A stretch of DNA of 33,106 nt, from positions 1 through 33,106 of IMG/VR virus record IMGVR_UViG_3300037882_001031; one strand, 5' to 3'. A program made the translations under genes and the position numbers. The notes below the pieces were generated by a model. That model searched no databases. It saw nothing but the letters and a program-made list of their open reading frames with translations, and had not been told where the DNA came from. The stretch comes from a virus. Positions 1,783-29,278 of the stretch are shown one piece after another (positions within the stretch are counted from its first letter, which is position 1; each line of letters starts with the position of its first letter).

Positions 1783-3003
1783 TTAGCCCAACGCAAATTG
1801 GAATGGGTAGCCGTTGCCGGATGCTGGTCGCGATGAGGTAAACTCACATTCAACCATCGCCAGCCCGTCGACGTTCGTCACGTTCGACACGGTGCAATCA
1901 GCGTTGACCATGCGAGCCGCGCCCCACGCGCCGCGTGCTTGGCCGATTTGCAACAGCACATCGAGACCGCCGCCTGCAATCAGGTCTTGGAAATCGAGGG
2001 CCGTGCCGCTGATTGCGATTCCACCCGTGACGGTTTGTGAGCCCGTCATGTACAGTTTGCACTTGATTTTCGGGTCCTGCCGCATGACCGCAACGCCATA
2101 GCGACCATTGCCCCCAGCGTACTGCGCCTTCTTTTCAGCAACAGTGATGCCCAGGTCGACTTCCAGGTCGCGCACCATGAACGAAACCGGCGAGCCGGTG
2201 TTGATGGTGATTGACGACGTCAGGCCGATGATTGGCGAGCCAGACGTTGGTAGCGTGACCGATGGTGTCGCAAGCGCTTCGTCGCCATCCCACGAGTTCG
2301 GCATGAACCCAAGCGTCCACATTGCACGCTCGCCCTCGGGCACTTTCAAAACCGCCGACGACGGGATGCACCCGAGCATGATGTTGCGCCACGTGCCGCG
2401 CTGCTCAGCATCAAAGTAGAGCGGCGTGCGCATCGGGACATCAGGCGTCGCCTGGTAGCGAATCGAGCGCCACACTTGCGACGATGTCACAGCGGCGGCG
2501 GATAAGGCCCGATCCAGCGTCAACACGTTGGTCGAGATGCTGGCAATCTGACGGACCTCGCGCGTACCGTCGGCGTTCACTTGGCATGAGACAAATTGCC
2601 CCACCGCGTAGTTCGTGCCGCTTGCGACCGTGACAGCCGTCGTCGTGGATGATGAAACCGTGGAGCCGGTTGACGATGCGTCCGTGACGCTGCCGAACAC
2701 GGATGCCAAGATTGGCCCGATATTGCAGCCGGTCGCGTTCGCCAGCGCTTCGACACCGGTGCCCGCGATGCCCATGGCCTCACAGTCAAACGAGAACTCG
2801 TCGATTTTCTGCGCGCCGTTCAGCGCCAGCTTCCGGTAGTTAAATGCGTCAATCTGATTGCGCTCCAACTTGTTGTAGCTGCGCGGCGCAAATGCGTCGA
2901 TGGACTCGGGTTCCAAAAAGATGAGTGTGCCCGGCGTCGACGTGAAGTCGTTAATGCCAGAATGAGCGCCATAGCGCAGAGTCGATGCACGTGCCAAAGT
3001 CAT
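1783..3003 (-). CDS. Major tail protein (tail tube)
   Basis: 406 aa, rich in Ser, Thr, Gly and Val, with predicted beta structure and no signal peptide. Start ATG at 3003 overlaps the preceding stop (ATGA). Features fitting a tail-tube subunit are the N-terminal region built around a long helix and loop (DAFAPRSYNKLERNQ), a Ser/Thr-rich insertion near residues 110-130 (SSTGSTVSSSTTTAVT), and a C-terminal half with repeated beta hairpins. It follows the tail-terminator-like gene and precedes the chaperones, the standard position for this gene. A segment near residues 180-210 (RYQAT...MRTPLYFDAEQR) is echoed in the small gene at 14278-14496. The 406-aa length suggests an extra domain, since many tube proteins are 150-250 aa. 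Confidence 0.8.
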   Translation of the reverse strand: MTLARASTLRYGAHSGINDFTSTPGTLIFLEPESIDAFAPRSYNKLERNQIDAFNYRKLALNGAQKIDEFSFDCEAMGIAGTGVEALANATGCNIGPILASVFGSVTDASSTGSTVSSSTTTAVTVASGTNYAVGQFVSCQVNADGTREVRQIASISTNVLTLDRALSAAAVTSSQVWRSIRYQATPDVPMRTPLYFDAEQRGTWRNIMLGCIPSSAVLKVPEGERAMWTLGFMPNSWDGDEALATPSVTLPTSGSPIIGLTSSITINTGSPVSFMVRDLEVDLGITVAEKKAQYAGGNGRYGVAVMRQDPKIKCKLYMTGSQTVTGGIAISGTALDFQDLIAGGGLDVLLQIGQARGAWGAARMVNADCTVSNVTNVDGLAMVECEFTSSRPASGNGYPFQFALG

Positions 3004-3467
3004 AACGTCACCTCACTTGGGATTGTGATTCGCAGAATGGATGCGCCGTCGGTATTCTCGACGCGCGCAGGGAAAAGTTCGTCGCTGCCGGACATACCGA
3101 GAGTGACAATGCCGGTTGTGTTTTGTGCCCAGTTGAGCGGCGATGCCAAGGCAACAGCGAGCGCCGCGTAGTCGGTGGCGATGCCCAAATCGAGAACTTC
3201 ACCGACGCGTGATGCGCGGTACGCAATCGACAGCACCCATTCAATCTTGGCGCGTCGTGGGTGTGCTTGGTGAATCGGCATCGGGCGCATCGACATCTGC
3301 CCTGCCAAGTCCAGCCAGAAGCCGCCGCTATCGGGCAAGTGTTCCAGTGAATCCGACGACGGACGCTGTGAGTTGCGGAACTTGAGCGCGCCACGACGAC
3401 CGTAAGAGGTCGATGCGGTCGCCTCCACAATCTCAACAATCTTGTCGCGTGCGGCTTTGATGGTCAT
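3000..3467 (-). CDS. Tail terminator / neck-like protein
   Basis: 155 aa, ATG at 3467. It starts with a basic helix (MTIKAARDKIVEIVEA) followed by alternating strands, and has a central segment that compares values per experiment-like pattern (IEWVLSIAYRAS). This architecture and the location directly upstream of the major tail protein fit a gpU-like tail terminator or a neck protein, which caps the tail tube and joins it to the connector. I do not recognise a definite family, so the call is positional. It overlaps the tail protein gene by four bases, suggesting translational coupling and matched stoichiometry. Confidence 0.5.
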   Translation of the reverse strand: MTIKAARDKIVEIVEATASTSYGRRGALKFRNSQRPSSDSLEHLPDSGGFWLDLAGQMSMRPMPIHQAHPRRAKIEWVLSIAYRASRVGEVLDLGIATDYAALAVALASPLNWAQNTTGIVTLGMSGSDELFPARVENTDGASILRITIPSEVTL

Positions 3468-3471
3468 TTGG

Positions 3472-4428
3472 TCACATCACATTCGAGATGTAAGAGAACC
3501 GTGCGCCGTCGCCGCCGTCTTTGGGTGATGGCTTTTCATCGTCGGAGTCGTCGCCAACCCATGACTCGACGTGCCGCATTGCCATGTCGACTTTGTCGGC
3601 AAGCTCAGTGCGCGCATCGGCAACACGTTCGCGCGGTGCGGTCGGGTCGTTCAGCATCAGCTGCAAACGGCATGCGGACACGTGTGCTGGTTCCAGCGGC
3701 TCGGTGTCACGAATCATGTCCTCGCGAATGCCGCGCGCAGCCAATCGTGGCAGCAACTCATTCACGAGCGCGGCGTCGATTGTCTCTTGCAGCGTGTGGT
3801 CGTCTTGCTCGCGCGAGTGCCAGATTGACGGCATCAACGTCTGCAATCGCTCCGGCGTCAGCGACCAGTTTGGCACGTAGCGCACAATTCTGAATTGCTG
3901 CGTGAGGCGAAACTTCTCGCCATTGGCATCGGTCAACTCGACGTCGACGGTCGCCGGTCCAGTGCTCTGCGCATTCGACGCGGACACCGTCGCATACACA
4001 ACCAGCGAGAACACCGAGACGCCGGATGCAATGTCGCACGGCAATGGCGAGCCAAGCAAAACGGTGTTGCCCTCGCCTGTCACGCCGACGACGCGCGCGG
4101 TCGTGTACTCGTCAAACGTGTCTGCGCTAGAGCGTCCAATGGCAATCGTGTCGCCATACTTCAAGACAGCCGTCGACGGCGACGACGTTGCCACTTGAAT
4201 AAACGTGTCGCCCTCATCGGCCGCAAACGTCGTGTCGGTCGACAGCAATGGGAAGCCCGAAGATGGCGCGGCCCACGTGCCATCCGTGTTAAACGGCGTG
4301 CGCACGCGGCACTGGATGTCGGTCACACCGCGCAACCAATCAAGCGACGACACGACGCCTGGACGGCGTGAGACGCTGCCCAGCTCGATGCGAACTTCGG
4401 ATGCTTGGTTGCGTGCGATGCGTTGCAT
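3472..4428 (-). CDS. Putative head-tail connector/adaptor protein
   Basis: 318 aa, ATG at 4428 immediately after the TAG of the previous gene. The N-terminal half (to about residue 180) is beta-rich, with a segment FAADEGDTFIQV...KYGDTIAIG resembling immunoglobulin- or barrel-like folds. The C-terminal half is helical, with TPERLQTLMPSIWHSR, LLPRLAARGIREDM and a heptad-rich helix, ending in an acidic Asp-rich tail. A helical C-terminal half of this type resembles gp6-like connector proteins (head completion), but the beta domain is an addition I cannot assign. Position between the exported-protein block and tail-terminator gene supports a neck role. Function is not recognised with confidence. 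Confidence 0.4.
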   Translation of the reverse strand: MQRIARNQASEVRIELGSVSRRPGVVSSLDWLRGVTDIQCRVRTPFNTDGTWAAPSSGFPLLSTDTTFAADEGDTFIQVATSSPSTAVLKYGDTIAIGRSSADTFDEYTTARVVGVTGEGNTVLLGSPLPCDIASGVSVFSLVVYATVSASNAQSTGPATVDVELTDANGEKFRLTQQFRIVRYVPNWSLTPERLQTLMPSIWHSREQDDHTLQETIDAALVNELLPRLAARGIREDMIRDTEPLEPAHVSACRLQLMLNDPTAPRERVADARTELADKVDMAMRHVESWVGDDSDDEKPSPKDGGDGARFSYISNVM

Positions 4429-4770
4429 CTAGGTGTCCTCGTCAAACGTCGTCGGCGTGTGTTGCGAATCTCTGCGTTGCGCGATGCGCCGGACATCTTT
4501 TCTGAGTTCTCTCAGTGCCTCTGTATTGCTGCGCAATTCCGATTGCACTGATGCCATGTTGATAGCCAACGCCTCGCGGTCTTTTGACAGTGTGGCAATC
4601 TTGCCGTTGATGTCGTCGCACTTGGCGTCAACCATTGAGCGAACATCACGAACATTCGTCTCAAGTGTTGCAATCTTTTCGCGTGCTCCGCCGACGGCAA
4701 ATGAACCACCGGCAACGGATGCGATGGCCGAGCCCACGACAGTCACGACCGTCTTGATTTCATCGTCCAT
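4429..4770 (-). CDS. Small membrane protein with coiled coil (holin-like?)
   Basis: 113 aa, ATG at 4770 preceded by GAGGTCATGT. One hydrophobic segment sits near residues 8-26 (VVTVVGSAIASVAGGSFAV), followed by about 70 residues of charged heptad-like helix (REKIATLETNVRDVRSMVDAK...) and a basic, Arg-rich tail. This one-span plus coiled-coil layout occurs in some phage holins, in spanin inner-membrane components and in DUF2730-like proteins. It is the last of five consecutive genes with an N-terminal hydrophobic segment, inside what should be head-to-tail genes. The endolysin lies some 10 kb away, so a lysis role is only a possibility. Confidence 0.5.
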   Translation of the reverse strand: MDDEIKTVVTVVGSAIASVAGGSFAVGGAREKIATLETNVRDVRSMVDAKCDDINGKIATLSKDREALAINMASVQSELRSNTEALRELRKDVRRIAQRRDSQHTPTTFDEDT

Positions 4771-4785
4771 CACATGACCTCGTCG

Positions 4786-5181
4786 CTATTCGGCGATTGG
4801 CTCAGCGGCAACTTCCACGACAACGCCGTCGACTACATCGCGTCGCTTGTCGACAAACACAGCCGGGGCTTGCTTGTTCGCGCGCTCACCGCACTCGTCG
4901 ACAAACTTTTGCACCTTGTGTTGTGGGCAGATTGCAACCTCTGACCAGCGGAGCGGTTGAACGCCGACAGCGACGGCTTCTGCGTCCTTTGGTTCAGCGA
5001 CAACGCTTGCGACGACTTCGCACTTGTCTTTGTCGCTGCATGAGACGTGGAACTCAGAGACGACCGGCGTCGCGTACAGCGAGCCAAACTTCTCCAAAAG
5101 CTCGGGGCTTGCCGCAATCGACGCGCTGCCCGCAATGCCGCTGCCCAACAATGCGCCAACGAGAATTGATTTTGCGTCCAT
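4786..5181 (-). CDS. Exported or membrane-anchored small protein
   Basis: 131 aa, ATG at 5181 sharing one base with the previous stop (TGATG). The N terminus (AKSILVGALLGSGIAGSASIAA) reads as an uncleaved signal anchor or signal peptide with a possible A-X-A cleavage near residue 24. The remaining 100 residues are soluble, with four cysteines (SCSDKDKC, ICPQ, DECG) that could form two disulfides in an oxidising compartment, and a Val/Glu-rich acidic tail. No family is recognised. Cysteine content and leader suggest the mature part is outside the cytoplasm. It could be a periplasmic partner of the neighbouring membrane proteins, but nothing in the sequence fixes its function. Confidence 0.5.
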   Translation of the reverse strand: MDAKSILVGALLGSGIAGSASIAASPELLEKFGSLYATPVVSEFHVSCSDKDKCEVVASVVAEPKDAEAVAVGVQPLRWSEVAICPQHKVQKFVDECGERANKQAPAVFVDKRRDVVDGVVVEVAAEPIAE

Positions 5182-5603
5182 CACTGGCCTGCTTTCTTGA
5201 ACTTCGCTGCGACATCTGGTCGTTTCAGCAATTTGGAAATCAGCTCTTTTTGCTCCTCGCCCTTGGCAAGCGATGGCTTGTTGATGTCAGCCTCGAGAGC
5301 AGCCAAGATGCCTGCCGCGCGCGACACAGTTGCAGGGTTTGCCTTGCCGCCTGCCTCACGGATGGCCTTCTCGACAAGCTCAAGAACCTGCGCGGCCTTG
5401 TCGTCAGCCTTCGTGTCCGTGCCGCGCGAGATGGCCTCGACGGCGGCGTGAATGCCTTTGACGATACCTGGCAGCGCGTCTTGGATTTGCTTGTTCTTGA
5501 TTGCTGCCAAGATGGCGCGCACAATCAACGGGATGACGATGGCAGCGCCGGACATCAGCAGTCCGAAAATGCCTTCTGCGTTTTGCTTGAACAATTCCAA
5601 CAT
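5181..5603 (-). CDS. Putative holin-like membrane protein
   Basis: 140 aa. Start ATG at 5603 is chosen over the longer frame because GAGGTCAA lies just upstream. One hydrophobic segment occupies about residues 10-31 (EGIFGLLMSGAAIVIPLIVRAI), followed by a mostly helical, Lys/Glu/Ala-rich soluble part and a basic C terminus (LKRPDVAAKFKKAGQ). A single N-terminal span with a helical C-terminal domain is the layout of LL-H-type phage holins, so a holin or antiholin is plausible, but I cannot confirm the family. The gene follows the signal-peptide-bearing fibre-like gene with a 16-base gap and is coupled to the next exported protein. Confidence 0.45.
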   Translation of the reverse strand: MLELFKQNAEGIFGLLMSGAAIVIPLIVRAILAAIKNKQIQDALPGIVKGIHAAVEAISRGTDTKADDKAAQVLELVEKAIREAGGKANPATVSRAAGILAALEADINKPSLAKGEEQKELISKLLKRPDVAAKFKKAGQ

Positions 5604-5619
5604 GATTTGACCTCGTGAG

Positions 5620-6606
5620 TTAGGTGGTGGTCCAGGTGCCGACGACGCTGGTTGTGACCCATTCGGCATTGGCGACACCGGTGTACACAACGGTCAGGCA
5701 GTTGCCGACTGCCGCTGACGAGATGGTGCCGGTGGTGTCAGTGGTGATTGCGCCAGCGCTAACAATGTTGGTTGTGTTGTTGGTGCGAACCGCAATGCCA
5801 TCCGCGTCAACAACGCAGAACGTGTATGTGGTGTTGGCCTGCGTGGCTGTCGGCAGCGTGAACACGACTTGCGCCGTCGCGCCGCTGTTATTGTAGACCG
5901 CGCCGCTGTTGCTGGATGTAACAGAAAGCGATGAGGCCTGGTTGACGGTGGGCAGCTCATAATAGAGCGGCAAGACAGTTTGGACGAATGTCGCAGCAAA
6001 GCGCATTGCCTCGGTGCCAGACGCAGAGATTGCAGCGATTGCCGTCGTCGGAAACCAAACGCCGGTTGTCAACCCGCCAACTGGTGCAAGTGCCGGAGCG
6101 CCAACCGCGCCAAGTGGCGAAACATATGGCAGCGTTGACGTTAGCGCCGACGTCGACAGCGTCAACCGCAGCGTGCCGTTAGTTGCAAAGCCAAGCTGGT
6201 CCGCGCCAACGTTGTAAGCCCCGGTGTTTGGGTCTCCACTAAAGGACCACGCTGGTCCGCCGGCTGTGCCGTTTGGACCAAGGCGAAGCAGCGTCGTTGA
6301 TATCGAGGTGGTGGTGTATGTGTCACGGAGTGTGCCGCCAACAGACAAGCCAAACGAGTTTGCGCCGATGTAGTAGAAGCCGTTGTCGAAATCGCTGGCG
6401 AAGGTCAAAGACGGTTCCGCTGCACTGCCGTCACTCGCGCGCACAGGTCCGGTCATAATGCAGTCGGCACCGCCCGGCAGCTCACACGCAGCGTCGCCAC
6501 CGCCACCGCCGCCGCCGCCCGCAGGCGGATTCAAGCGAATGCGAGGCGCATCGGCAAACGCCGATGCCGACAACAGCAACGCGACGACAAGTGTCTTGAT
6601 GTTCAT
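5620..6606 (-). CDS. Secreted tail-fibre-like repeat protein with Sec signal peptide
   Basis: 328 aa. The start, ATG at 6606, overlaps the previous stop. Residues 1-18 form a textbook Sec signal: Lys4, a hydrophobic core (TLVVALLLSA) and a probable cleavage site in SAFA|DA. An octaglycine linker follows at about residues 31-38. Then come three degenerate repeats of about 40 residues with a GFYYIGAN..GLSVGGTLR / GAYNVGADQLGFATNGTLR / TGVWFPTTAIAAISASGTEAMR pattern, as seen in phage tail-fibre and appendage proteins. The C-terminal third is Thr/Val-rich beta. Phage fibres are not normally exported by Sec; combination with a signal peptide is odd. Possible roles are receptor masking against superinfection or a surface-displayed adhesin, both inference. 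Confidence 0.7.
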   Translation of the reverse strand: MNIKTLVVALLLSASAFADAPRIRLNPPAGGGGGGGGDAACELPGGADCIMTGPVRASDGSAAEPSLTFASDFDNGFYYIGANSFGLSVGGTLRDTYTTTSISTTLLRLGPNGTAGGPAWSFSGDPNTGAYNVGADQLGFATNGTLRLTLSTSALTSTLPYVSPLGAVGAPALAPVGGLTTGVWFPTTAIAAISASGTEAMRFAATFVQTVLPLYYELPTVNQASSLSVTSSNSGAVYNNSGATAQVVFTLPTATQANTTYTFCVVDADGIAVRTNNTTNIVSAGAITTDTTGTISSAAVGNCLTVVYTGVANAEWVTTSVVGTWTTT

Positions 6607-7004
6607 TTAAGCCCCATGCACGACAGAGTCACAGTGCCAGATGCGACACGGCAGAAGGCGGCACCGGCATCCATTGACGCCGAGAAGCCGTTGGAGCCGC
6701 AATTGCTTGCGTTGGTTGACACGCAGAAGCCGGATGCTGTCACAGCGCTGTTGCCGATGAATACCGACGTCGCAGACACCGTGTAGCACGCGACGTCATT
6801 GAAGCCGGACATGCCAGAGATGGCCGTTGCGGTCGTACCGCACGTGACATCAAACGAGCCCGCTGCGCCGGACGCCAGGCCGGTCATTGCCGACGTGACA
6901 TCGTGTGCCACGTAAATCGGCGATGACTCGACGTCACGCGACGCTAACAATGCAACCGCAACGACGACGGCGATTGCCAGAATGGTTGCGGTTGCTGCTT
7001 TCAT
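6603..7004 (-). CDS. Small exported or membrane-anchored Cys-containing protein
   Basis: 133 aa, ATG at 7004 overlapping the previous stop as ATGA. Residues 4-21 (ATATILAIAVVVAVALLA) form a signal anchor or signal peptide. The mature part is Ser/Thr/Ala/Gly-rich beta-type sequence with six cysteines (TCGT, ACYT, FCVS, NCGS, FCRV, SCMG), consistent with three disulfides outside the cytoplasm. No lipobox is obvious. It is coupled to the signal-bearing fibre-like gene downstream, so the two products probably act together at the cell surface. No family is recognised. Confidence 0.55.
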   Translation of the reverse strand: MKAATATILAIAVVVAVALLASRDVESSPIYVAHDVTSAMTGLASGAAGSFDVTCGTTATAISGMSGFNDVACYTVSATSVFIGNSAVTASGFCVSTNASNCGSNGFSASMDAGAAFCRVASGTVTLSCMGLK

Positions 7005-7159
7005 CACTTCCCGCCTTTGTTGCGAGCGTCTTGCTCGCGTGCGATTTTCGCGGCCTCACGGTGTGCCGCTTCGGATGACTGGCCGGTCGTGCGCGAGATG
7101 CGCTCGGCCAGCTTTTCGACGGCCTTGGATTTGCTTTGCTCGGTGTGGTGCTTACTCAT
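7004..7159 (-). CDS. Small basic helical protein
   Basis: 51 aa, ATG at 7159 overlapping the previous TGA (ATGA), so it fits the operon precisely although short. Composition is charged: SKSKAVEKLAERISRT, AAHREAAKIAREQ and a basic tail NKGGK, predicted almost entirely helical with no hydrophobic segment. It lies between an unknown 133-aa protein and an exported protein. It may be a virion-associated or regulatory helper. No family recognised. Confidence 0.6.
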   Translation of the reverse strand: MSKHHTEQSKSKAVEKLAERISRTTGQSSEAAHREAAKIAREQDARNKGGK

Positions 7160-7557
7160 CGTGCACCGAGCGCTTTTTTGGTTGCGGCGATACCAGCCGT
7201 CTGCGTCATCGCTGCGACTTGCGCTTCGGCGCGCATCTCGCTTTCGGCTTGTTTGCCGTTGCGCTCGGCGACGTTCTTCGCTTGCACTTCCGACCATGCG
7301 GGAGTTGGCATAAGCCACTCACCATCGTGTTGCAGATACATGCGGTCAAATTCTTGGTCGAGCACCTTTGGCGCTTCTTGCAGCTTGTAGAGCTTGAGCT
7401 GCTTGCCGTTGTACTCGCGCGACTTGGCGAGTGCTTGCATTAGCACTTGGCGCGACGCCGACGGGTCGCCAGCTTTTGATGTGCCGTCATCTGCAAACGA
7501 ATAGACGTTGCCGTCGACGACTGAAACCAGATTCACTTTGCGCTTAATGTCTGACAT
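7156..7557 (-). CDS. Hypothetical protein downstream of the capsid gene
   Basis: 133 aa, ATG at 7557, starting just after the terminator that follows the capsid gene. The N-terminal third looks beta-rich (KRKVNLVSVVDGNVYSFAD), the middle contains a loop GDPSASRQVLMQALAKSREYNG, and the C-terminal half is helical and Ala/Glu/Arg-rich. No signal peptide or membrane segment. I do not recognise the family. Position after the major capsid protein would suit a capsid decoration or completion protein, but the sequence itself shows nothing decisive. Confidence 0.6.
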   Translation of the reverse strand: MSDIKRKVNLVSVVDGNVYSFADDGTSKAGDPSASRQVLMQALAKSREYNGKQLKLYKLQEAPKVLDQEFDRMYLQHDGEWLMPTPAWSEVQAKNVAERNGKQAESEMRAEAQVAAMTQTAGIAATKKALGAR

Positions 7558-7585: not shown

Positions 7586-7611
7586 GCAGGGCGGCGCGAT
7601 TGCCGCCCTGC
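7586..7611 (-). terminator. Rho-independent terminator after the major capsid gene
   Basis: A perfect 10-bp inverted repeat (GCAGGGCGGC / GCCGCCCTGC, loop of six) sits 11 bases past the capsid stop and, on the minus strand, is followed by TTTTCTC. The short T run suggests partial termination, which would leave downstream genes expressed below the capsid. Confidence 0.75.
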
Positions 7612-7621
7612 GTAGCCGTCA

Positions 7622-8599
7622 CTACGGCGCGTCGGTCACAATCTTGATGTAGTGCTTGTCGGTGTGCTCACCAATTGCGTACTCATACAAGCCGATGATT
7701 TCGACGTTGCGGTTCGACATGTCGACGTCCACCAAGATGCGTGGAGCGTGGCCCTCGACGATGACCGATGGACCGCGTTGGCCGGTGACAGGGTCGCCGC
7801 TGCCACGTGCAACCAGAGCACCGACATCGTCAGCGCCAGCGTTTGCCGTTGCTTTCGACAGCGCGTCGATTTGGAACACGGGGAACCCGAGGAAGTCGCC
7901 CTTGAAGCCGTTCATCTGGACAGCGCCGTTGACCATTGACATAGTCGCTTGCGAGTTCAACACCGTCGACAACGCGGCGCCAGAACCAGCCAAGAGCGCA
8001 GTACGCAAGTCGCTGATTTGGATTGGCGTCAGGTAGAAGGCGAAGTCACCGTGTGATGGCGAGTTTGCTTCGAGCGCGTAAATCGCGCTCAGCATGTTCG
8101 CAATCGTCAGGTCGCCGCCCGAGGTGCCGACTGAGCCCGATGCGTTTGCCAATGAGGCAGCGCAGTCAAACTCAAGTTTTGCCCACAAGCGCTCGCCAAC
8201 GGCAGCAACCGGCGCCGCCAAGAGGGACATGAATCCCGCGAGGTCGCCGTTTTGCATGGCATCGAACACCATCGATGCACTGCGACCACCAAGGCCACGG
8301 CGAATTGCGCGGTCGGTCAAGTCAACACGCGAGTACACAGCGGTCGGCGTAACCGACACACCGGCGGGAATCGCGTAGTCGCTGATGGTCGAAGCATCGC
8401 TACCCTCGGAAACGGCGGACGCCGCATCCAAGATGGTTTGCGTCGGCAGCTTGTACGTCAGCGAGCCGGCGCCGTCGATGCTGACGCTGTTGAATGCAGC
8501 GGCAACGATTGGTTGTTTCGGGGTGAGAGCAAGCAAGTGCTGCGAAAGGATTTCGCTTGCAATGCTGCCCGTGAGAACGGTCGTCGTAGTCTGTGCCAT
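7622..8599 (-). CDS. Major capsid protein (HK97-like fold)
   Basis: 325 aa, ATG at 8599. Composition, length and order (after scaffold, before an immediate terminator) fit a major capsid protein of HK97 fold. Visible traits are a Ser/Thr/Ala-rich N-terminal arm, a long middle helix region (AIRRGLGGRSASMVFDAMQNG) followed by a helical spine-like segment (LTIANMLSAIYALEAN), a domain with FYLTPIQISDLRTALL typical of the A-domain, and a C-terminal beta region (VEIIGLYEYAIGEHTD). No maturation protease gene is visible nearby, so cleavage of the prohead may not occur or may use an unrecognised protein. The assignment is by architecture and position rather than by a clear motif. Confidence 0.8.
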   Translation of the reverse strand: MAQTTTTVLTGSIASEILSQHLLALTPKQPIVAAAFNSVSIDGAGSLTYKLPTQTILDAASAVSEGSDASTISDYAIPAGVSVTPTAVYSRVDLTDRAIRRGLGGRSASMVFDAMQNGDLAGFMSLLAAPVAAVGERLWAKLEFDCAASLANASGSVGTSGGDLTIANMLSAIYALEANSPSHGDFAFYLTPIQISDLRTALLAGSGAALSTVLNSQATMSMVNGAVQMNGFKGDFLGFPVFQIDALSKATANAGADDVGALVARGSGDPVTGQRGPSVIVEGHAPRILVDVDMSNRNVEIIGLYEYAIGEHTDKHYIKIVTDAP

Positions 8600-9333: not shown

Positions 9334-9978
9334 CTAGCCCTGGACACGTCGACGGGCGGCGGTTTGCTTGGCGTGGAATGCCTGCCATGCTTTCGCGCGC
9401 CGGTAGCTGCCATTGGTTTGCACAGCCAGCCCTTGCAGCTCTTGCTCTGCCTCGCGCTTGTTTTGCCCGCGCGCTTTCTTGTCCGGCTGCTCTGCTTTCT
9501 TGCGTGGCTCACGCGGCGGATTCACCAACGGCGCACCCCAAATAGACAACAGATTGCGCGCCACCCATTGCGACAACTCGCGATTGCCATCCGGCGACAA
9601 GCCGAACCACCGTCGTGTCCGCTGCTGATATGCGGCAATCAGGTTGCGCTCGTCGCGTGGCTTGACGCCGAACGTGATTGTCATTGACGTGCCGACGACT
9701 TGGCGCGCGAGTGCGGCAACGCTGTTAAGCATCTTGCCAGACCAAATGAGCTGCACGGGGTTTGCACTGCGACCGGACAACCGGCGCACAAGTGAGTGTT
9801 CTTGCGAGTACGGCTTGAACGCGCGCCCGTGGATGTCGATGCCGTCTGACGTGCGCTCGACAATGTGACCGACGACGATTGCTTCGACGCCTGATGCGAG
9901 CGGCCTAAAGTTTGGCTTCTTCGGTTTGCCATCGAAGAACCCTGTTTTCTTGACGGTGACGTTTGCCTTGACTGCCAT
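9334..9978 (-). CDS. Phage virion morphogenesis protein (gpG/gpS-like)
   Basis: 214 aa, ATG at 9978 with AGGTGA upstream. The segment GIDIHGRAFKPYS followed by WSGKMLNSV and a later RTRRWFGLS resembles the Phage_virion_morph family (Mu gpG, P2 gpS tail completion type), where a pattern 'G..w.pl...GkL..s' precedes a conserved arginine/'R..lGls' C-terminal part. The C-terminal 60 residues are highly basic with a Lys/Arg/Gln-rich helix, unlike the typical family member and possibly DNA- or scaffold-contacting. It lies between the MuF-like and scaffold genes. Confidence 0.72.
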   Translation of the reverse strand: MAVKANVTVKKTGFFDGKPKKPNFRPLASGVEAIVVGHIVERTSDGIDIHGRAFKPYSQEHSLVRRLSGRSANPVQLIWSGKMLNSVAALARQVVGTSMTITFGVKPRDERNLIAAYQQRTRRWFGLSPDGNRELSQWVARNLLSIWGAPLVNPPREPRKKAEQPDKKARGQNKREAEQELQGLAVQTNGSYRRAKAWQAFHAKQTAARRRVQG

Positions 9979-14277: not shown

Positions 14278-14496
14278 CTACCGGTCATACGGCGGGGAGT
14301 CAACAACGATAGGCGGCGCCTCGTCCGGCTTGACTTCAACCATCGGCGGCACATTATCGTCCGTGTACGTTGCCGGGTTTGTCATGAACGTGCGCCAATG
14401 TGGCCGTCGCTCTGCCTCAAAGTAGATGGGCTGACGCATTTCGCCAGTTGACGTTGCGACGTAGCGGAATTGAACTGGTGTCTTTGGTCCACTCAC
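14278..14496 (-). CDS. 72-aa protein with a major-tail-protein-like segment
   Basis: 72 aa from a GTG at 14496 that overlaps the endolysin stop (GTGA), the junction type used throughout the operon. The segment FRYVATSTGEMRQPIYFEAE followed by RRPHWRTFM resembles major tail protein residues IRYQAT...MRTPLYFDAEQRGTWRNIM, with about 15 of 30 identical. The DNA matches at about 48 of 76 positions, including an exact TCAAAGTAGA on the plus strand. The rest is Pro/Asp-rich. A second copy of a tail-protein fragment outside the tail genes may be a recombination relic, a decoy or a small regulator of tail assembly. Expression is likely given the coupled start. Confidence 0.6.
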   Translation of the reverse strand: MSGPKTPVQFRYVATSTGEMRQPIYFEAERRPHWRTFMTNPATYTDDNVPPMVEVKPDEAPPIVVDSPPYDR

Positions 14497-15029
14497 GGCC
14501 ACACCCCATATCCCGCAATCCGGGTATCATCCACATGGTACGCACGACGCCGCACACCGTTTGCCGTGTTGCCCTCGATTGTGTGCACCGTCTCTGTTGC
14601 GGCGTTATATCTCTCGACGATGCCAACGTGACGACCGCGACCGGGGTCGCTGGCGACGCGGCTCTTGAAAAATACAACCTCGCTCGGTGATGTCGCGCGA
14701 CGTTTGCCGTTGACGGTTGCATTCGAGGCCCACACGCCATCGCCGCGTTTCTCATCAAGGCATGCTGCCTTAAGCCGCCGCTCCATCGTCGCCACCGACG
14801 CAATGGGGTTGGCGCGCGTTGGCGTCGGCACCACATCACCCGGCAACGGCTTACCCGCCATCCGAAAGCACCACGCCACAAAGTGCGCGCACCACGGCTC
14901 ACGTCTCCCACCCGTGAACACGTCAACGTCCGGCCCGTCATTGTTGCCGGTCGCCTCGCGGACGCCAATAATTGATTGTGCCCATTCAAGCGGCGTACGC
15001 GCGCTGTGTGTTTGTCCATTGTTGGTCAT
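14493..15029 (-). CDS. CHAP-domain endolysin
   Basis: 178 aa. CHAP-type catalytic residues can be placed: C47 in EPWCAHFVAWCF, H134 in GRGRHVGIVERY and N154 in TIEGNTAN. This is the standard Cys-His-Asn/Glu arrangement of amidase or endopeptidase domains that cut peptidoglycan. There is no visible signal peptide and no separate cell-wall-binding domain, so release would need a holin. The ATG at 15029 overlaps the preceding stop (ATGA). It sits in an operon of small proteins with RusA rather than beside an evident holin gene; candidates with membrane spans lie at 4.4-5.6 kb and 20.9-21.5 kb. Confidence 0.88.
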   Translation of the reverse strand: MTNNGQTHSARTPLEWAQSIIGVREATGNNDGPDVDVFTGGRREPWCAHFVAWCFRMAGKPLPGDVVPTPTRANPIASVATMERRLKAACLDEKRGDGVWASNATVNGKRRATSPSEVVFFKSRVASDPGRGRHVGIVERYNAATETVHTIEGNTANGVRRRAYHVDDTRIAGYGVWP

Positions 15030-20977: not shown

Positions 20978-21086
20978 GCTTCACCCTGACAAATTGAGTC
21001 AGCTTGTCGAACACAATTCGAAAGCCAACTGCCGTTGCAATGATGATGGCTGCAATCTCGTAACCGCTCATTCCTGTATTAAACAT
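20967..21086 (-). CDS. Very small membrane protein (39 aa)
   Basis: 39 aa, ATG at 21086 sharing a base with the previous stop. One hydrophobic segment (YEIAAIIIATAVGFRIVF), then a basic tail (KLTQFVRVKREP). The layout, N-out or N-in single span with a positively charged end, is typical of small phage membrane peptides. It overlaps the next small gene by 11 bases. Unrecognised; too short for many callers. Confidence 0.55.
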   Translation of the reverse strand: MFNTGMSGYEIAAIIIATAVGFRIVFDKLTQFVRVKREP

Positions 21087-21304
21087 CAGTTCACCTCGCT
21101 ATCGTTTTGAATGAAACGCGAATGCTGAACGCCTCGCAACTGGTCGCGCGCCAACTCCAACAACAACGCCGTGCGCATGTGCTGCGTGGTCGCGTGCTCT
21201 GCCATGTGCCATGCAAACTTAAGCTCATCGCGCAAGCGCAACACATAGCGAATGAGTGCTGCAATGGACAACACCAGGAACATGAATGCAGCGCCAGCAA
21301 TCAC
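21086..21304 (-). CDS. Small membrane protein (72 aa)
   Basis: 72 aa from a GTG at 21304 that overlaps the previous stop (GTGA); a longer start at 21331 is possible. Hydrophobic residues 2-20 (IAGAAFMFLVLSIAALIRY) are followed by a charged, helical soluble part with His/Gln/Arg residues (WHMAEHATTQHMRTALL). No family recognised. Part of the membrane-protein cluster. Confidence 0.58.
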   Translation of the reverse strand: MIAGAAFMFLVLSIAALIRYVLRLRDELKFAWHMAEHATTQHMRTALLLELARDQLRGVQHSRFIQNDSEVN

Positions 21305-21489
21305 TGAACACCACTGAGCAGCGACGAGCACTTGACCATTAGCCTGTGATATTCGTCGCGGTGCTCCTTTGCTTCTTTCAACTCACCGGCCAACTTGTCG
21401 ACGGCGTCTTGCTTTGACGCGCCAAAATATCCAGCCGCCATGATGGCCGCGATGGTTACAAAAGATAGAATCACAATCGCCAGCTTCAT
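21301..21489 (-). CDS. Small single-span membrane protein (Rz-like layout)
   Basis: 62 aa, ATG at 21489 preceded by the repeated leader GGGAGAGACGA. Hydrophobic residues 3-20 (LAIVILSFVTIAAIMAAG), followed by a charged helical stretch (ASKQDAVDKLAGELKEAKEHRDEYH). The N-terminal span plus coiled helix resembles the i-spanin or Rz layout, but the length is short and no outer-membrane partner with a lipobox is visible. Directly downstream of the SF2 helicase gene. Confidence 0.6.
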   Translation of the reverse strand: MKLAIVILSFVTIAAIMAAGYFGASKQDAVDKLAGELKEAKEHRDEYHRLMVKCSSLLSGVQ

Positions 21490-26676: not shown

Positions 26677-27264
26677 TCAGCCCACGCGAAGCGCCTCAAT
26701 CAACCCGGCGTATCGCTCAAATTGCGCATGTTCGCGGTCTGGATTGCCGGTAGTGCGCCACAAATGCGCGTGCACGATTTCGTGCGCGAGAGCCGTTGCG
26801 CCAATGGTGCGGCCTGGTCGTGTTGCGACGACGACGCAAGAGTCTGAGCGAGTGACACCAGCGAGTGTGCGCGTGCCCTCGGTAAATGACTCACCGGGCC
26901 TCCACTCGATGTCGAGTTGTTGCAAAGTCTGCAACAGCTCCGCCGGGTCTCCAATTCGCGCGCGCCATTCAATCACCAGGTCAGACAAGAAACGCGAGTG
27001 CTCGTCGATGGTGCGCAATCCACCATCGCCCCCGTAGCACAGCCCAAACCCCGGCACGCGATTTGGCATGCGTGCATTGTGTTGTTTGACGCCATACAAA
27101 ACACCCGCGCCGATGACGGATGCGATGACGCCGAGCGCGATAGCCAAACCGCCCGGTGTGAGCTCGCCGCGTGATGCCGCCGCGATGACGGCACCGATTG
27201 CGACGACGATTAGAAAACCGCCGCCAATTAGGATTGGTGTTGCTGCGTTCATGCGAAATGGCAT
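26677..27264 (-). CDS. Membrane-anchored HExxH (zincin-like) protein
   Basis: 195 aa, ATG at 27264 with GGAG upstream. Two N-terminal hydrophobic segments (about residues 9-30 and 38-58) anchor it to the membrane, followed by a soluble domain. The C-terminal part carries HEIVH at 161-165, the zinc-binding motif of metallopeptidases, and a downstream DREH (176-179) that could supply a third ligand. Fused spans plus zincin in a phage late gene are uncommon. It is last in the late operon, after fibre genes. Possible roles include processing a surface protein or peptidoglycan-linked target; the substrate is unknown. Confidence 0.65.
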   Translation of the reverse strand: MPFRMNAATPILIGGGFLIVVAIGAVIAAASRGELTPGGLAIALGVIASVIGAGVLYGVKQHNARMPNRVPGFGLCYGGDGGLRTIDEHSRFLSDLVIEWRARIGDPAELLQTLQQLDIEWRPGESFTEGTRTLAGVTRSDSCVVVATRPGRTIGATALAHEIVHAHLWRTTGNPDREHAQFERYAGLIEALRVG

Positions 27265-27909
27265 CTAGTGACTCCGTCGTGCTTTTTGGTACAGGGTCGC
27301 GCACTGTAGCACCGGGTTATCAGTGCCGGTCAGGCGGTCAAGAGTGATGTCGATGGCGTTCCAGCCGGGCACGATGTCGGCATACGCCGTCGACGTCGTG
27401 AATGTGGTGTAAGTGCCCGCGCCATTTGAGATTGACCCGGATGTTTCCGACCGCGTTGCGGTGCTCGGTCCACGAAAGGATGCGCTTACTGTCGACGTTG
27501 TGCCGCCGTTGCCAAGAAAAATCAGCGACAAATACGCGCGTGAGTATGGCGTGCCATCCCACCGTGGGAATGGCCGCACCCAAAAGCGCGCCTTGAGCGT
27601 TGCGCCCGCGTCGCTAATGAATGCCGTCGACGATGACTCCCGCGACCAAGCCCACGTTGCCAAGTTGTGCACAAACGCAGTGCCGAACGGCGGGCCGGAA
27701 TGGTCGTGGCCGTATGTGCCCTGTGGGTTTTTCGCGATGGCCGGTGACGTTCCAGTTTGGCCAGACGCTCCAGTTGCGAACTCATAAGCCCAGCGATTTG
27801 CACCCGCGAGCGATTGCATAACGTCGGCATACGCCGGGGCCTCTGACGTCGTCAGTGCGCGCGGCAAGTATTGCGGCCAGTGCCGGATGATTTTATTATT
27901 GCCGCTCAT
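27265..27909 (-). CDS. Tail fibre-like protein with HDHSG motif
   Basis: 214 aa. ATG at 27909, one base after the previous stop. It contains GTYGHDHSGPPFG (H68 and H70), a motif like the His-x-His sites found in trimeric phage fibres or spikes, and then beta-rich sequence (TLKARFWVRPFPRW, SASFRGPSTATRSE). The C terminus is basic (LYQKARRSH). It shares GTY..HDHS with the larger neighbour, so the two may be paralogous fibre components. Probably a receptor-contacting protein at the tail tip. Confidence 0.6.
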   Translation of the reverse strand: MSGNNKIIRHWPQYLPRALTTSEAPAYADVMQSLAGANRWAYEFATGASGQTGTSPAIAKNPQGTYGHDHSGPPFGTAFVHNLATWAWSRESSSTAFISDAGATLKARFWVRPFPRWDGTPYSRAYLSLIFLGNGGTTSTVSASFRGPSTATRSETSGSISNGAGTYTTFTTSTAYADIVPGWNAIDITLDRLTGTDNPVLQCATLYQKARRSH

Positions 27910-27910
27910 G

Positions 27911-29278
27911 TTAAGCCACCCATCCAGACCAGCATGCAATGCCAGTGCTACCGCCGGTTACGTTAACCACCGACAGCCCGACGCGGTTGATTGCGCCGCG
28001 CGTGAGGCTGGTTGGTGACGTCAGGCTCGCGGTCCAGAATTGCGACGTGCCAATACGTGCAATCGTCATCGCTTGTGCGCCGCCGCCCGCAACAGAGATT
28101 GACGCAGTCGGCGCTGTCGTGCCGCTCTCTTTGTACAGCAGCGCCAAAAATCGCATCGTCGTTGTCGGCACATCAGGCACAGCGACCGCCATTGTTGAGA
28201 TAACAGTGCCCGCAACGGACGATGTGTTTGGCGGCGCTGCATACTCAAGGCCAACCGTTTCGCCATCCGTCGTGAAAATCCCAAGCGACTCAGCGAACAA
28301 CGGCATTGCCGCCGCGTTCTCGCTGGTCTTAAGTGTTGGCGCTGAATGGTCGTGGAATGCGCGATACGTGCCTGATGAATGGTCAGCCAGTGTGAGTCCG
28401 CCGTCGTCATTTCCAGCGGGTGCGCCGGTCAATGACTCAGCCATTGCGTTTTGCGCGCGCGACAAAAGATGCACGTGCGCCGCCGAGAACTTGAGCCCGT
28501 CAACAACGGCGTCAGACCATGGCAGCGGCGTCAGCGCGATTGCGGATGACCCACCATATGTCGATGTGGTTTGGATTTGCGGCGGCGAATTGTTTTTGCG
28601 CAGCTTGCGCTGGTAGACCATGTCGGTTCTTTTGGCTGTGCGATTATGCCACACGCAAACAGCCGGTCGCAGCGGCGAAACATCCGGCGCAACAACCGAC
28701 GGCAGAAACGCCGCCGCAAGCTGCATTGGCATCGCCAGCCCGACAAGATAGATGCCGGTCCCGCCGGGCCTTGTTGTTGCAAACACCAGGCTGCCGTCAT
28801 CGGTCAAGTCCAGCAAATCGTCGGCGTCAATGATTGTCGACGAACCGTAATCAAGCGCAACGCAAAACGCCTTATAGAAGTCGGGGCGCGCAAGGCCGAT
28901 ACCGCGATAAAGCGATGAATCATAGCCGATGCGAATCGCTGATGTGTCAATGCAGTTAATGAATGCTGCGCTCAGGAAGACATAGTCTGCCGTGATTTTC
29001 GTCTTGTCGATTGCAACTGAATCAAACCGATAGTCAATTGCAGAGCCCGCCGCGCCAATGAACGTCATCCGCGCCGATGACGGCAGCCCAAGCGCAACGC
29101 CGGTCCCGTTGCCGCTGTGCGTGTGTTGCAATGCTGGCGAGTTGTTGCCGCTCAAAAAATCATCGGTCAGATTGTAATCGCCGATTGCGTCTTCAAGCAC
29201 GCGCGTAAACGATGGCCTGCCGGGGTCGCAGTCTTGCGCTGATGCGCCCTGGAATGATGACGACACGAGACGTGGCAT
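27911..29278 (-). CDS. Tail fibre/spike protein with two HxH motifs
   Basis: 455 aa, ATG at 29278. Starts MPRLVSSSFQGASAQ, then a mixed beta/helical N-terminal domain. HxH motifs occur at H52/H54 (LQHTHSGNG) and H309/H311 (FHDHSAP). In known phage spikes such sites hold a metal ion in trimers. The C-terminal third is Ser/Thr/Ala-rich beta. It follows the large tail-tip protein and precedes a shorter homolog, typical of an adhesin locus. The receptor is unknown. Confidence 0.65.
   Translation of the reverse strand: MPRLVSSSFQGASAQDCDPGRPSFTRVLEDAIGDYNLTDDFLSGNNSPALQHTHSGNGTGVALGLPSSARMTFIGAAGSAIDYRFDSVAIDKTKITADYVFLSAAFINCIDTSAIRIGYDSSLYRGIGLARPDFYKAFCVALDYGSSTIIDADDLLDLTDDGSLVFATTRPGGTGIYLVGLAMPMQLAAAFLPSVVAPDVSPLRPAVCVWHNRTAKRTDMVYQRKLRKNNSPPQIQTTSTYGGSSAIALTPLPWSDAVVDGLKFSAAHVHLLSRAQNAMAESLTGAPAGNDDGGLTLADHSSGTYRAFHDHSAPTLKTSENAAAMPLFAESLGIFTTDGETVGLEYAAPPNTSSVAGTVISTMAVAVPDVPTTTMRFLALLYKESGTTAPTASISVAGGGAQAMTIARIGTSQFWTASLTSPTSLTRGAINRVGLSVVNVTGGSTGIACWSGWVA

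Follow-up and report, generated by a model that had tools for sequence, protein, structure and literature searches.

A putative cassette of exported and lysis proteins, including a tail-fibre protein with a signal peptide, between the capsid and tail genes of a divergent tailed phage

Tailed phages assemble in the cytoplasm of their hosts, where their fibres are also assumed to fold and assemble, and a tail-type protein with a secretion signal is unexpected given this intracellular assembly. The Llp protein of phage T5 acts in the periplasm on the receptor FhuA and is encoded beside the gene of the receptor-binding protein; it is an example of a phage protein closing a receptor from the periplasm, and proteins of this kind also prevent the loss of progeny on debris (PMC9586334). 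In this work, a stretch of 33,106 nucleotides (nt) comprising positions 1 to 33,106 of the IMG/VR virus record IMGVR_UViG_3300037882_001031 was analysed (the window in the following), which is a nearly closed tailed-phage genome of 33.1 kb. In it, five consecutive genes, designated A to E, lie after the capsid and before the tail genes. They seem to form a cassette of two parts, namely an exported set (A, B and probably D) and a set for lysis (C and E), and B resembles a tail-fibre shaft which has gained a signal peptide.

The five genes lie on the minus strand, start with ATG and follow each other in the order A (6603-7004, 133 amino acids (aa)), B (5620-6606, 328 aa), C (5181-5603, 140 aa), D (4786-5181, 131 aa) and E (4429-4770, 113 aa). 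A and B overlap by 4 nt and C and D by 1 nt, gaps of 16 and 15 nt separate B from C and D from E, and the stop of E abuts the start of the following adaptor-position gene (4428). An earlier note on this DNA, made without database searches, had described five tightly coupled products in a row with a signal peptide or hydrophobic anchor, two of them rich in Cys and one fibre-like with a cleavable signal, and this description holds in all its points. The N-terminus is hydrophobic in 5/5 products, being textbook in B, strong in A and C and weak in D and E (hydropathy of the best 15 residues 3.03 in A, 2.02 in B, 2.64 in C, 1.79 in D and 1.83 in E), and there are six Cys residues in A, four in B, none in C, four in D and one in E. 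Hydropathy, charge and the -3/-1 rule are the basis of these predictions; the weak anchors of D and E are rich in Gly, Ala and Ser, and C, D and E are at most candidates for export. No lipobox was found in A, B or D. In other loci, an equally hydrophobic N-terminus was present in 497 of the 6,102 genes (8.1%, which is an undercount since the first possible start of each open reading frame (ORF) was used, a procedure that also misses the run in the window), and the longest same-strand run among these genes was four, seen once.

Homologues of A (phmmer 3e-8) occupy the same slot in four relatives represented by five contigs, that is, L402, L448, L394 and L421/L422, the last two having identical capsids and possibly being one phage. 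A profile of A searched against 42,522 ORFs matched only in these contigs and in the window. The comparison of A with the family of the relatives by hhalign gave 97% (E-value 1.1e-10; best of 100 shuffles 0.015), and the invariant columns of the family include M1, Cys 55, 73, 118 and 129, and Ala21, which sits where cleavage is expected. Based on homology, signal, conserved Cys residues and common slot, A is a true homologue of these L402-type A proteins. The AlphaFold2 model of A showed an N-terminal helix at residues 3-27, with predicted local distance difference test scores (pLDDT) of 69 and 80 in the first two ten-residue blocks, and left the rest unmodelled; the models of A alone (pLDDT 39) and D alone (pLDDT 37) were uninformative as a whole. 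A role of A as a general phage decoration protein was rejected, as the motif VFIGxSxVT matched no ORF searched.

B consists of a cleavable signal peptide, a linker of eight Gly residues, a shaft of tail-fibre repeats and a C-terminal domain. Its signal peptide reads MNIK TLVVALLLSASAFA, with DA after the predicted cleavage site and small residues at -3/-1. The repeat GTAxxPxxxFSGDPNTGxYxxGADxxGxxTNGTxR extends over residues 58-204, the protein matches a tail fiber family (phrog_28766, 1.1e-9), and the same residues match the fibres of two viral contigs, L226/L227, with E-values of 1e-38 to 1e-39. The latter fibres have no signal peptide and sit after a tail-tip-like gene of 1148-1150 aa. In a first survey, a signal peptide was absent in 79/80 viral loci bearing the fibre repeat, the sole exception being Myxococcus phage Mx8, and in a second one it was absent in 78/80 loci with the canonical fibre head domain of Mx8 p64, the exceptions being Mx8 and L321, whose fibre (the Mx9 fibre) resembles p64 in sequence. 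The two surveys comprise approximately 155 fibre genes in all. A signal on such fibres is thus rare (about one to two per 80 loci), and the idea that fibres from metagenomes often carry a signal peptide is ruled out. Judged by its sequence, B would be a tail-fibre shaft that acquired a signal peptide. The alternative outcome named in the earlier note, that is, ordinary virion proteins without export, agrees with the virion-type domains of B and fails at its start, where B bears a signal that ordinary fibres lack. A literature search for exported tail fibres or for Mx8 p64 found no description.

The case of Mx8 extends beyond a single gene. Its p64, a canonical fibre head domain preceded by a signal peptide, is found in a block with p66 (signal, Gly-rich linker, seven Cys), p67 (signal and a GDSL-like hydrolase domain, 1.5e-6; L223, 7784-8332), p68 (transmembrane (TM) segment and coiled coil, Rz-like, 1e-3), p70, p71 and p72 (NlpC/P60, 2.2e-6). 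No homologue of A was found in Mx8, and the run from p64 to p72 is not discussed in the Mx8 papers found. The Mx8 block is an independent parallel. On the widest reading, at least two unrelated lineages of tailed phages would send fibre-type proteins through Sec as a dedicated late cassette, these disulphide-bonded, receptor-binding fibres would act outside the virion (by occupying receptors or by preventing re-adsorption) or join it after export, and the cassette would be swapped as a unit against ordinary virion proteins, a generalization for which we see somewhat less than an even chance. As a cultivable phage with such a block, Mx8 allows a direct test of the exported-fibre question.

The relatives of the window are metagenomic contigs of IMG/VR; profiles of TerL reached L092 and L099, and the portal profile reached 62 relatives. 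A homologue of the major capsid protein (MCP; 7622-8599, minus strand) was detectable in 14/62 of them (best 2e-41), with an identity to the capsid of the window of no more than 33%. Single-protein scans of IMG/VR with MCP, E and TerL gave no match, and neither did tblastn against a phage collection with MCP, A, C and E as queries, because the phage is too divergent for patterns of this strictness. The earlier note had proposed to look for a conserved block at the same position in related phages, and such a set was indeed found in L402, L448, L394 and L421/L422. Their slot starts with the A homologue with its signal, followed by a protein of about 730 aa with a signal and 12-14 Cys, an anchored protein of 174-177 aa with four Cys, an anchored coiled coil of 77-82 aa and a holin-like protein of 73-75 aa, and then by a candidate cysteine-peptidase endolysin, which has no Pfam match and was assigned from position and reading of the sequence. 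In L402, for instance, the counterparts of A, B, D, E and C are five consecutive genes with overlaps of 4 nt and the endolysin candidate is next; the slots of the others are alike. The second protein of L402 combines a signal peptide with a PHROG tail protein (phrog_5939, 1.3e-15), an assignment which replaces that of a LamG lectin, unsupported by Pfam. The B-slot signals have small -3/-1 residues in all four relatives, although their proteins share no domain with B of the window. Among the relatives, A, B and D each have an even number of Cys and C and E have none, a pattern that disulphide-bonded exported proteins would show. In three relatives a metallophosphoesterase comes after the endolysin candidate (PF00149, 8.6e-9 in L402); a calcineurin-like phosphoesterase lies between the endolysin and head-tail adaptor genes at 20034-20816 of L402 and 12626-13405 of L221.

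In comparison, the window and the L402-type contigs have in common the slot, the homologous A, an exported tail-type neighbour, an anchored protein with four Cys, an anchored coiled coil, a holin-like protein and overlapping genes. They differ in gene order (A-B-D-E-C-endolysin in the L402 type, A-B-C-D-E in the window), and in the L402 type an endolysin candidate and a metallophosphoesterase come next.

Other relatives, whose capsids are nearly identical to those of the L402 type, carry a different set in this slot. In L399, L447 and L445/L092 it is opened by a virion structural protein of 134 aa (phrog_3758, 2.5e-29) and proteins of 374 aa and 380-401 aa without signals, after which coiled coil, holin-like and endolysin genes follow as in the L402 type. 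L405, L413 and L397 open with the same non-exported genes, and their contigs end before the lysis genes. In the MCP tree, the exported and non-exported slot types interleave among close capsids, with four label changes needed, so that A, B and D behave as an exchangeable set. Since the capsid of the window is far outside this group, the arrangement of A with an exported B is either ancient or the product of a long-distance exchange. In six relatives (L099, L404, L408, L411, L414 and L416), a gene similar to that at 9334 of the window seems to stand directly before the adaptor gene, which was read directly for L099. The six yielded no MCP homologue, and therefore their capsid gene and slot must be elsewhere or different.

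Similar contents are seen in more distant phages. In L022, L024, L026 and L041 the MCP is followed by a fibre-like protein that lacks a signal and by two TM proteins, the first of them XhlA-like (phrog_689 holin, 1.1e-3); all but one of these contigs also have a GH108 endolysin there (2.2e-27 in L024). Fibre and lysis genes thus share this slot across a broad group of phages.

In the case of C, a single N-terminal TM segment (approximately residues 21-36) is followed by charged helices, which is the architecture of small holins, and C shares slot and topology with the holin-like proteins of 73-75 aa in L402, L448, L394, L421, L399 and L092; it is thus a holin candidate. D has a weak Gly/Ala-rich N-terminal anchor followed by a C-x5/6-C motif, an architecture that its counterparts with four Cys in the relatives share. 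E combines a weak N-terminal anchor with a coiled coil and matches over its full length phrog_3961, a family without assigned function (1.4e-8; only chance matches across 37 related records), as well as the Rz-like spanin family phrog_739 (5.8e-5). The E proteins of the relatives match an Rz-like family weakly, and E is accordingly a candidate for an Rz-like or XhlA-like accessory lysis protein. No lipoprotein partner with a lipobox, as in Rz/Rz1-type spanins, was found in D or its neighbours, and a PADLOC search for anti-phage defence gave only coiled-coil matches, for E. The lysis module considered in the earlier note is favoured by the anchored coiled coil, the holin-like protein and the candidate or recognised endolysin in the relatives' slot, and is not supported by sequence homology of C, D or E. 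The surface-modification or exclusion idea of the same note is a possible one: the invariant Ala in A and the signal in B make export of both very probable, and B derives from tail fibres.

These data suggest the following picture. A, B and probably D would leave the cytoplasm via Sec and be stabilised by disulphides, while C and E would be the membrane part of the lysis machinery, with C as a holin that gives the cytoplasmic CHAP endolysin (14493-15029) access to the wall and E as a membrane-anchored coiled coil similar to Rz or XhlA. Being co-translated from the virion operon, both parts would appear together, so that the exported proteins accumulate late, either periplasmically or at the cell surface, and leave together with the progeny. 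There they may occupy or mask host receptors, thus excluding further phages and stopping progeny from re-adsorbing to debris. We are confident that A and B are exported, consider it likely that exported and lysis genes form a conserved cassette, and find a role of C and E in lysis reasonably probable; the two-part reading as a whole has slightly better than an even chance. Receptor masking is favoured as the function since these exported proteins have an adhesive origin and are produced as progeny appear, and it is put forward tentatively, as an idea that may well prove wrong. The late export of a tail-type protein and its Cys-rich partners from a conserved cassette, coupled to lysis genes, would give phages a new means of controlling adsorption as infection ends, or else a new route of virion maturation.

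Several observations weigh against the two-part reading. The holin matches of C remain below the cut-off (phrog_6918, 0.046; PF09682, 0.024, 15.5 bits vs. a cut-off of 24.9). No endolysin gene is adjacent to C in the window, the CHAP gene being located about 9 kb away from C, D and E. By hhalign, homology of D (0.1%), E (4.8%) and C (0.1%) with the L402-type families is unsupported. The anchor of E has negative charges on its N-terminal side and positive ones behind it, which speaks against an N-in orientation as in a true Rz. The L402-type B proteins (about 728 aa, 12-14 Cys) are made of other tail-type domains and match B of the window only in signal and position. Finally, the exported set swaps with a virion structural protein, and A and B are hence readable as virion parts.

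The last point makes late addition to the virion the main rival. According to it, A and B are virion components which arrive from outside the cytoplasm: they would be exported, form their disulphides in the periplasm and be attached during or after lysis, or be held in the membrane by their N-termini until then. The tail-fibre repeats of B, the PHROG tail protein in the B slot of L402, the structural protein whose place the exported set takes in sister phages and the signal added to the canonical head domain of p64 all suit this explanation. On the contrary, the cytoplasmic assembly of tailed phages speaks against attachment from outside, and we know of no mechanism for late fibre attachment to finished virions. 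Moreover, the genes at 27911-29278 and 27265-27939 hold the expected site of tail-end receptor-binding proteins, so B need not be the receptor-binding protein of the virion. Late addition is held to be somewhat unlikely.

A second rival extends the lysis function to the whole block: during lysis, A, B and D would target the outer membrane or the wall jointly with C and E. In the four L402-type relatives the genes are linked and translationally coupled to those of a holin, a coiled coil and an endolysin, which agrees with this view, as does the Mx8 block with its exported GDSL hydrolase and NlpC/P60 protein. It is rather improbable, because no enzyme domain was found in A, B or D and because the sister phages, which retain E-like, holin-like and endolysin genes, presumably lyse their hosts without these three. 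That the N-termini are no export signals at all, being merely the hydrophobic starts of ordinary virion or accessory proteins assembled in the cytoplasm, would fit the weak N-termini of D and E, the hydropathy-type prediction and the virion-type domains of B, but is very improbable given the signals with small -3/-1 residues that B shares with the B-slot proteins of four relatives lacking its domains, the invariant Ala at the cleavage column of A, the even Cys counts confined to the exported classes and the near absence of such starts in the comparable fibre genes surveyed.

The putative two-part cassette is embedded in a minus-strand virion operon with the order CHAP endolysin, TerS, TerL, portal, MuF-like, the gene at 9334, scaffold, MCP, the gene at 7156, a 51-residue gene and A-E. 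The CHAP endolysin upstream of TerS (minus strand; PF05257, 4.5e-8; phrog_21357 endolysin, 1.6e-13) has no export signal. The product of about 51 aa which flanks the block (7004-7162, minus strand, ATG at 7159) was matched by eye to the 'ARESAERINRERR' proteins of 48-52 aa in the relatives and had no phmmer match among them. As the earlier note remarked, siphophages usually place head-completion genes here, and these directly follow the block: the head-tail adaptor-position gene 3472-4428 (minus strand), which closes the slot and has homologues in L221, L222 and 29 relatives, and the adaptor-position gene 3000-3467. A tube-like gene at 1783 and the tail genes come next. The tape-measure gene spans both contig ends (1-870 and 32349-33106), its frames continuing across with a frame shift at the junction. 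A strong terminator-like hairpin immediately follows the capsid gene, upstream of the block, at 7586-7611 (minus strand; ten pairs, nine of them G-C, and TTTT). Downstream of the tail fibre genes, 26677-27264 (minus strand) encodes a protein of 195 aa with two N-terminal TM segments, an HEIVH zinc-peptidase motif and a weak SprT-like match, with no homologue among the relatives. Two overlapping small TM proteins (21086-21331 and 21301-21489, minus strand; ORFs of 62 and 81 aa) belong to the early region, outside the block.

With respect to known systems, the closest likeness of B is to ordinary tail fibres with the GTA.AP.LTFSGDPNTG repeat, as its shaft reaches E-values of about 1e-39 with a siphophage fibre; these fibres differ in having no signal peptide at their start and in their place in the operon, which is the tail-tip end. 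The lysis cassettes of phages (holin, endolysin, Rz/Rz1, XhlA) are similar in their small N-terminally anchored proteins, the TM coiled coil and, in the relatives, the coupling to an endolysin, whereas in the window the endolysin is elsewhere, an o-spanin lipoprotein is missing and exported fibre proteins are added. The superinfection-exclusion lipoproteins Llp of T5 and Cor share with the block a small exported phage protein with a disulphide, but A, B and D are without lipobox, Llp is not fibre-like and the timing of the block would be late. In Mx8 the likeness comprises a signal on a fibre of the same repeat family (phrog_28766 for both), exported Cys proteins, a TM coiled coil and lysis-type genes; Mx8 differs as a podophage with unrelated virion genes, in which the block comes after the late virion genes and includes a GDSL hydrolase and an NlpC/P60 protein.

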